Assembly (NCBI RefSeq): GCF_029203285.1
Contig: NZ_CP115669.1
Span: forward strand, 4,340,001 to 4,404,000
From: Pseudomonas sp. PSE14
GTDB lineage: Bacteria; Pseudomonadota; Gammaproteobacteria; Pseudomonadales; Pseudomonadaceae
Direction: 5' to 3'
DNA length: 64,000 bases
The position numbers were made by a program, and so were the translations under genes. Positions 4,040 through 4,239 of the stretch are shown one piece after another; position 1 is the stretch's first letter; each line of letters begins with the position of its first letter. A model generated the notes under the pieces. It did not search any database. It was not told where the DNA came from and saw nothing but the letters and a program-made list of their open reading frames with translations.

Positions 4040-4232
4040 ACCCTCGTAAACTGCACGGCGAGAGCACTCTGACTGCCCACGCTTGTGGTTCGAGGTTTGG
4101 CTCGTTCAACTGTTCGGGCTTTGGTCAGAGGACGGCGGGAGGCAGCTTGGGCTCCTACTCGTGCTGCAAACACCGCGGACCTGCAGCTTGCCTCCCGTCG
4201 CTCTCACCTTCGATCCTATCGAAGTCGGCAGA
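4040..4232 (-). ncRNA. Predicted bridge RNA of the IS110 element
   Basis: Read on the minus strand from the left end toward the transposase. A 5' hairpin has 7-bp arms (4224-4218 and 4214-4208) and a 3-base loop. A target-binding domain is closed by GGGAGGCA/TGCCTCCC (4196-4189 with 4144-4137); its loop holds AGGTCCGC (4182-4175) and GTAGGAGC (4158-4151). A donor-binding domain is closed by CTCTGAC/GTCAGAG (4130-4124 with 4073-4067); its loop holds ACAGTTG (4113-4107), a CGAG/CTCG hairpin, and CACAAGC (4087-4081). The first pair matches the two halves of the occupied REP target. The second pair matches the right and left IS ends. Order and base-pairing logic agree with published IS621 bridge RNAs. 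RNA boundaries are estimates. Confidence 0.8.
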
Positions 4233-4239
4233 CACAAGC

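Follow-up and report, generated by a model that had tools for sequence, protein, structure and literature searches.

Does an insertion sequence of the IS110 group carry, in the non-coding DNA beside its transposase gene, an RNA that specifies where the element inserts? This question is raised by a locus in a 64,000-nucleotide stretch of the Pseudomonas sp. PSE14 genome (contig NZ_CP115669.1, positions 4,340,001 to 4,404,000; below, the window, whose own numbering is used throughout). The original prediction read a 200-nt segment upstream of the transposase gene (tnp), on the minus strand, as a bridge RNA whose guides match both the interrupted target, a repetitive extragenic palindrome (REP), and the ends of the element itself; the sequence and the coordinates of that segment proved accurate. 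Our analysis makes it very probable that the element is an IS110-group insertion sequence that works like IS621 and targets REPs through a bridge RNA. At the level of sequence, the element has defined ends, a core, a target, guides and a conserved paired structure, and among its relatives the guides change with the target.

The host genome (one contig, 5.98 Mb) contains three copies of the element that are 100% identical and differ in their flanks, and these copies set its ends. The window copy is 1145 bp long including one CT core and lies at 3094..4238 on the minus strand, as do all parts of the element given below unless stated otherwise. The right end reads AAGACAGTTG-CT and the left end CT-TGTGTCTG, with AAGACAGTTG at 3094..3103, and the CT dinucleotide, which is common to target and donor, is present at both ends (left copy 4237..4238, right copy 3092..3093). 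The interrupted REP has its left half, GCGGACAAGGTCCG, at 4239..4252 and its right half, CCTAC, at 3087..3091, and the target reads AGGTCCG, then CT, then CCTAC. The flanks of the three copies are AGGTCCG, AGGTCCG and AAGTCCG, each followed by CT-CCTAC, and all three are REPs; the two copies outside the window thus lie in sites that resemble the predicted guide, one identical to it over 7 nt and the other (AAGTCCG) reached through a single G-T wobble. At the same place in L215, a locus from the same genus whose neighbouring gene is 92% identical (genomes and loci are denoted by G and L numbers), there is an intact REP, AGGTCCGCTCCTAC, and the intergenic region contains GGACAAGGTCCGCTCCTAC intact, without the element. 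Homology on the left side of L215 extends through 75 columns as far as the core (score 52, compared with a best score of 22 in 200 shuffles). Counting against this comparison, its right flank, up to aceK, is unalignable (12 compared with 17 in shuffles), and for this reason L215 is graded only as a probable empty orthologous REP site.

The tnp gene (3104..4033) encodes a DEDD transposase/recombinase of 309 amino acids in which Pfam finds both the DEDD_Tnp_IS110 and the Transposase_20 domains (PF01548, E 1.4e-23; PF02371, E 3.4e-19). Its matches among solved structures are IS621 (8wt6, E 3.1e-31) and ISCro4 (9t56, E 3e-31), which are its sole solved relatives by sequence at E up to 0.001. When the protein is aligned to IS621, GID, EAT, KTDxxDA and the SG region correspond, and the catalytic residues are presumably among these motifs. 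The non-coding right end is only 10 bp, AAGACAGTTG standing directly 3′ of the tnp stop codon (3104-3106); the non-coding stretch 5′ of tnp measures 205 bp with CT counted.

All four predicted guides were found in the 200-nt segment, each once and in order, and they match the occupied REP and the element's own ends over 7 nt each, as originally described. The left target guide, AGGTCCG (4176..4182), equals the left target half, and its next base, C, is the core C; the right target guide, GTAGGAG (4152..4158), is the reverse complement of CTCCTAC. The left donor guide, ACAGTTG (4107..4113), equals the right end of the element, and the right donor guide, CACAAGC (4081..4087), is the reverse complement of GCTTGTG, which spans the junction of the putative circle. 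In 20,000 dinucleotide-preserving shuffles of the segment, with the last word shortened to CACAAG, at least two of the four guide words occurred together in 103, and the single words occurred in 515 (AGGTCCG), 288 (GTAGGAG), 432 (ACAGTTG) and 1525 (CACAAG).

The fold energy of the segment is -84.8 kcal/mol (z -3.2), and the closing stem of the RNA is GGTGAGAGC/GCTCTCGCC. From closing stem to closing stem, the predicted bridge RNA covers 4057..4208 (transcript ends putative), as judged from the consensus structure and compensatory changes in 25 sequences, and about 4208-4057 is the preferred placement of the RNA itself. A covariance model gives the window element 190.7 bits, the element itself being among the source sequences of the model. 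In alignment A1, which contains 25 sequences, covariation was compared with shuffles and with slid structures. The result showed that 97.0% of the cells of 42 consensus pairs are paired, compared with 92.6 in shuffles, that two-sided change affects 12 pairs and 61 cells (5.9 and 17.4 in shuffles; at most 3 and 5 in slid structures), and that the covariation score is 0.226 (0.139 in shuffles). Both predicted loop stems are present and covary in relatives, two-sided change being found in 9 of 12 pairs of the target-loop stem and 2 of 5 pairs of the donor-loop stem. There are 79 G-U cells, 25 of them from one invariant pair, and 11 A-C cells, and the excess indicates that the sense strand is the better-folded RNA.

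One part of the original prediction did not survive this comparison. The first 30 alignment columns show no predicted structure, so the 5′ hairpin CTTCGATaggATCGAAG, which had been counted as part of the RNA, is not kept in relatives. The hairpin overlaps TAGGAT (4213..4218), which in relatives is an invariant TAnnnT (columns T21, A22 and T26) and a candidate -10 box of a bridge-RNA promoter. When the right and left ends are joined, TTGCTT, a spacing of 17 nt and TAGGAT follow one another, forming a candidate bridge-RNA promoter across the circle junction, as described for IS621. Because of its overlap with TAnnnT, which resembles the -10 box of such a circle-junction promoter, the hairpin region is probably located 5′ of the RNA. 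In the integrated copy, a scan for consensus promoters detected no promoter-like site on either strand.

Guides were also compared with targets across related elements. A total of 398 family genomes (15 with a transposase at E <= 1e-60) and 398 genomes of one large genus (25 at E <= 1e-70) were searched, and 85 loci were taken for decoding. Three loci without an anchor, four with a short left flank and L004, which repeats G014, were removed to leave 77, and 38 of 40 further left flanks were added. The resulting set comprises 115 sites, 30 genomes and 16 distinct left guides. For P. hunanensis, L005-L013 and L015 were not decoded separately, and the elements of G099, G085 and G028, which are without these ends, were left out. 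A permutation test used one genome per distinct guide and ignored relatedness; the guide offset was one of two per genome, taken by best fit, which slightly favours pairing. The result showed that a guide forms on average 6.01 pairs with its own target (Watson-Crick or wobble, over 7 positions), compared with 5.10 after permutation, and that none of 50,000 permutations was as high; with Watson-Crick pairs only, the values were 5.56 and 4.35, again with none of 50,000 as high. The own target ranks best for 12 of the 16 guides (11 of 16 with Watson-Crick pairs only). On the right side, guide and target correspond at the variable base in all 31 decoded genomes, with GTAGGAG facing CCTAC in 6 and GTGGGAG facing CCCAC in 25.

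Such agreement might be a by-product of descent, with loops that reflect lineage in hosts that share similar REPs. In its favour, a guide and a REP class are shared by many genomes, and the permutation test has no model of relatedness. However, at positions -5 to -1 of the 115 sites there are 515 Watson-Crick pairs, 50 wobbles, 10 other mismatches and no reverse (mirror) wobble; G-T wobbles, in the direction that RNA pairing predicts, thus make up 50 of the 60 departures. Moreover, some elements with similar left-guide regions have different right guides, each in keeping with its own target (G352 and G1042; G960 and G1223), and rare targets are accompanied by matching rare guides (ATTCG in G960, ACGCCGG in G375 and GGGCCG in G120). 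We therefore regard descent as a highly improbable explanation, and the IS621-type strand logic of the original prediction is supported by the 115 sites in 30 genomes.

The direction of the wobbles bears on how many sites one guide can serve. In the host genome, a hand count found 64 ANGTCCGCTCCTAC sites (2 in a reversed-pattern control), of which 38 have AGG, 25 AAG and 1 ACG. The guide G reads G by Watson-Crick pairing and A by wobble and therefore covers 63 of the 64 sites. It appears that the left guide uses G-T wobble and that one guide may read several REP alleles of its host. The REP class AAGCTCG is commoner within the window, where it accounts for 8 of 16 CTCCTAC heads, and holds none of the three element copies. 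A literature text search, which covers neither preprints nor most subscription journals, found no paper joining IS110, bridge RNA and wobble.

Several observations weigh against guidance by a bridge RNA as read here or reduce the force of the counts. Many of the 115 sites repeat one guide-target pair, and at -5 to -1 the 33 unique pairs show 10 wobbles, 8 other mismatches and no mirror type. Mismatches occur at position -7 in 30 and at position -6 in 46 of the 115 sites. G271 has a mismatch at -1 in three of three sites, one G375 site (L040) has three mismatches at the offset of that genome, G392 fits badly (its transposase match starts at residue 50), and G352 and G096 pair only when the guide is read one base earlier. 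The guide of G020, AGGTCCG, faces six sites reading GAGTCCG (two), TGGCCCG (three) and AGGGCCG (one), and the GAGTCCG sites carry a reverse-type mismatch at -7; this genome is known from contig ends only and was kept out of the 115-site tally. In the alignment of the RNA, further pair types number 29, compared with 29.5 in shuffles, so that one of five covariation measures is without excess. In G008 there are three left ends, and the guide is not visible.

Taken together, these data suggest the following mechanism, in which we infer the circle, the promoter, the transcript, protein binding and activity. The element would be excised as a circle whose joined ends form a promoter, and a bridge RNA of about 150 nt would be transcribed from the junction and bound by the transposase. 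The first loop would pair with the two REP halves, the left guide with the bottom strand and the right guide with the top strand, and the second loop would pair with the circle junction in the same manner. Strand exchange at the CT core would then insert the element into the REP in one orientation. The elements form a clean natural series, in which the donor ends are nearly fixed while target guides and REP targets change, and with it the strand logic of bridge RNAs is supported from genomes alone.

Joined ends and variant ends were also seen elsewhere. Tandem right-end/left-end junctions were found in 3 of 398 genomes; two of them have one mismatch and are no more frequent than matches to the reversed control (3). 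The third, a lone exact AAGACAGTTG-CT-TGTGTCT junction, is intergenic in L213 (1501-1517, minus strand), and in the stretch fetched for that locus neither a bridge RNA (model R1) nor a transposase was found. Extra right ends in L084 and L099 were set aside, as they stand beside N letters and look like assembly effects. In a subgroup comprising L094, L096 and L014, an additional G is present in the right end (GACAGTTGG-CT) and the right donor guide begins AACAAGC, not CACAAGC.

The opposite strand of the same region also matches a known RNA family. Rfam RF02234 (sX15) matches the plus strand at 4057..4213 with 47.0 bits (E 6.3e-7; the gathering score, 55, is not reached), in antisense orientation to both the bridge RNA and the tnp leader. 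TAAACT (4047..4052, plus strand) adjoins the ribosome-binding region of tnp and is a candidate -10-like box for an antisense RNA, with no matching -35; a consensus promoter scan found nothing promoter-like there. The corresponding sense motif, AGTnTAnG[AG]G, is present 5′ of tnp in 22 of 26 sequences; in three of the remaining four, inspection by eye shows TAnnnT retained on the antisense strand, and L047 is without the region. RF02234 matched 11 of 13 further loci, always opposite to tnp, so that all 12 matched elements, the window element included, have it antisense, the strand of sX15 being taken from the Rfam model. Ten of the 11 have a transposase match (L005, L014, L037-L042, L044 and L071), and in the other, L069, tnp is broken; no RF02234 match was found in the IS110 loci L070 and L048. 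Three matches exceed the gathering score (L038 62.6, L040 60.3 and L069 120.2), and the other eight range from 30.7 to 43.1. RF02234 was found in 1 of 194 order genomes and 2 of 369 class genomes, the host genome included, and is not common at that search sensitivity.

The strongest match is in L069, where the complementary strand can be read by eye as a bridge RNA: TAACGCCT equals the left flank plus the core, GATAAGC corresponds to the left end CTTATG except at one position, and model R1 gives 66.5 bits. A TACAGT box in L069 ends six bases before the start of sX15, and a weaker RF02234 match (35.8 bits) lies on the sense strand. At 939-1481 (minus strand), L069 has a gammaproteobacterial IS110 transposase that by eye seems to be broken by an IS3-type transposase frame.

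In ISPpu9, the antisense RNA Asr9 is complementary to the tnp leader and its -10 box overlaps the ribosome-binding site (PMC8450116). By this analogy, sX15 is likely to be an Asr9-like antisense RNA of an IS110 bridge RNA. Family sX15 reportedly stems from a Xanthomonas RNA-sequencing study. Such an antisense link would explain what this Rfam family represents, and it suggests that bridge RNAs may be under antisense control in elements other than ISPpu9 of P. putida. In the text search, IS110, bridge RNA and antisense RNA co-occurred only in the TIGR-Tas paper, and sX15 together with Xanthomonas and sRNA (small RNA) occurred only as a name in a Herbaspirillum RNA table.

These features raise the possibility that the region upstream of tnp is mainly a regulatory leader, as proposed for ISPpu9, in which a fold of the 5′ untranslated region hides the ribosome-binding site, an Asr9-like antisense RNA opens the fold, and the loop matches are secondary. 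The similar layout and the antisense RF02234 match at the window element speak for it. A leader alone, however, can explain neither why target guides follow their targets over 16 guides nor why the right guide follows the right target, and bridge RNAs of IS110 elements are experimentally established (PMC11208160). The two roles are compatible, and a leader as the main role is in our view very improbable; a bridge RNA accounts better for the locus.

The published Ssr9 RNA of ISPpu9 has a left-end box, a right-end box and orphan copies outside REPs (PMC8450116). With about 180 nt on the sense strand, flanked by both element ends, it resembles a second bridge RNA carried by a mini-element. Model R1, run over 27 genomes, gave three matches in the host genome, all at full copies and none of them an Ssr9-like orphan, and orphan bridge RNAs were dismissed there on that basis. 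Low-scoring R1 matches elsewhere (G020 and one in G375) lie at contig ends; tnp was checked for only some of the matches.

The right end of the element is not confined to the element. AAGACAGTTGCTCCTAC occurs 39 times in the host genome, three of these being the element, and 432 times exactly, element copies included, in 25 genomes of the genus, of which 23 carry it; a reversed-pattern control gave 0 in every genome. Within the window, non-element occurrences are at 43289 and 56762. The first closes a cassette at 43118..43305 (plus strand) that consists of a REP remnant and a hairpin, ends in AAGACAGTTG-CT-CCTAC without a transposase end, and has an incomplete left CTCCTAC; the second closes a cassette of the same type at 56589..56778 (plus strand), whose left REP junction is partly deleted. 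Further cassettes were seen in L036 (2437-2623) and L239-L308, and a variant, TAGACAGTTG, in L301.

Seventy-nine non-element occurrences were examined, from 30 loci (one or two per genome), 40 regions of G004, G003 and G001, and others to hand, and all 79 close short stretches that have no transposase end. In 54 of them a REP stem or another GACAGTTG stands directly before the upstream CTCCNAC, and in 25 it does not. Full upstream sequence is available for 74 (L240 and L246 offer fewer than 20 bases there); of these, 59 have an upstream CTCCYAC on the same strand and 36 have one on the opposite strand. The 54 delimited cassettes start CT-CCNAC, without the element left end TGTGTCT, and are 36 to 296 bp long; one family of 41 bp has 8 copies and another of 79 bp has 5. 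In six cases the cassette stands in tandem behind another right end, one of these being the third copy of the element. In unselected sequence, the exact 10-mer stands on 3 of 16 CTCCTAC heads in the window (one being the element) and on 3 of 53 heads in 25 fetched loci (one being the same element), and no 10-mer with one to three changes stands on those heads; the right end is therefore unlike a decaying remnant. Cassettes as decayed element copies were also rejected, since the bases before AAGACAGTTG vary by cassette, unlike the tnp end.

IS110 recombinases of this family may also move these cassettes, which have only the 10-base right end in common, a proposal that we put forward tentatively and hold to be somewhat less likely than its opposite. 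Host intergenic DNA flanked by a REP (CT-CCTAC) and a right end AAGACAGTTG would leave as a circle and integrate at the CT of another REP or cassette, which would yield REP-CT-CCTAC...AAGACAGTTG-CT-CCTAC as well as tandem arrays. In favour of the proposal, the cassettes have the right end, core, target half and orientation of the window element, and a circle would explain the diverse cassette interiors. In two families the similarity on the left runs past the REP for up to about 110 bases, as REP pairs as targets would predict; joint spread of REP and cassette may also account for it. Three results speak against the proposal. Copy number does not track the transposase: 43, 46 and 39 motifs were counted in G001, G003 and G004, where no close transposase was found among five scored candidates per genome, whereas G020 carries the element and has 10. 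Between the right donor guide CACAAGC and CTCCTAC, pairing stops after GCT. In front of the 54 cassettes, the left halves (TGGCCCG 14, AAGCTCG 10, GGGCCCG 7, ACAGTTG 6, GAGTCCG 6 and others) are more varied than one guide would read. Y1 transposases associated with REPs are known, and movement of the cassettes by such an enzyme is the main alternative. If IS110 recombinases do move them, IS110 shapes intergenic regions far beyond its transposase count, and the cassettes would be a bridge-RNA counterpart of gene cassettes, with copies far outnumbering the autonomous element.

No clean empty site of a cassette was found among the fetched loci (L016/L255, L237/L234). L255 and L016 represent the same intergenic region, with the full element in one species and a cassette in the other, the REPs being possibly different. 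Viral contigs gave 23 matches, 17 of them to one recurring AT-rich stretch unrelated to the cassettes, so the 17-mer alone can arise by coincidence; only L325 is cassette-like, and the extra-G variant was not found in viral contigs. No Rfam family reached its gathering score on eight cassette loci. Cassette A is matched in part by 190 plasmid records and 3 phage records, always with a coverage below 80%, and looks like a widespread intergenic hairpin. The text search for GACAGTTGCTCC returned only papers unrelated by title.

How does the window element compare with known systems? The bridge RNA and recombinase of IS621 are reportedly the subject of Hiraizumi 2024. The window element shares with IS621 a DEDD transposase, an RNA upstream of tnp, a CT core, a REP target, a candidate promoter across the joined ends, and the order of target loop then donor loop with its strand logic. 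It differs in that the transposase match is only 112 bits, in its guides and host, in being known from sequence, and in that the 5′ hairpin is not conserved in its relatives. RF02234 sX15 covers the same RNA on the opposite strand, the complement of the 120-bit match in L069 reading as a bridge RNA, but the family is listed as a Xanthomonadaceae sRNA and the window element stays at 47 bits, below the gathering score of 55. Siddiquee 2024 (PMC11187229) demonstrated seekRNAs and natural reprogramming. ISPa11, which is of the IS1111 type, likewise targets Pseudomonas REPs through a guide RNA, whereas its RNA lies downstream of tnp and its guide order is reversed (PMC11187229). According to Tobes and Pareja 2006 (PMC1525189), ISPpu9, ISPpu10 and ISPa11 lie in REPs. 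ISPpu9 resembles the window element as an IS110 element in REPs with an AG/CT repeat at its insertion and a long tnp leader, and its antisense promoter (Pasr9) adjoins the start codon, TAAACT of the window being similarly laid out (PMC8450116); in the window element, by contrast, the antisense RNA is only predicted, and the host genome contains no Ssr9-like second copy. In the text search, ISPpu9 appeared together with bridge RNA only in Durrant 2024. That paper (PMC11208160) established bridge RNAs and decoded ISPpu10 and ISPa11 among others, so that the novelty implied by the original prediction is lower than suggested. ISPpu10 is an IS110 element of Pseudomonas (P. putida) REPs with guides decoded in an extended figure of PMC11208160, whereas the window element targets AGGTCCG-CT-CCTAC, the two being likened by description and not by sequence. 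The window element is thus a further member of an established bridge-RNA kind, one in which ISPpu10 had already been decoded likewise.
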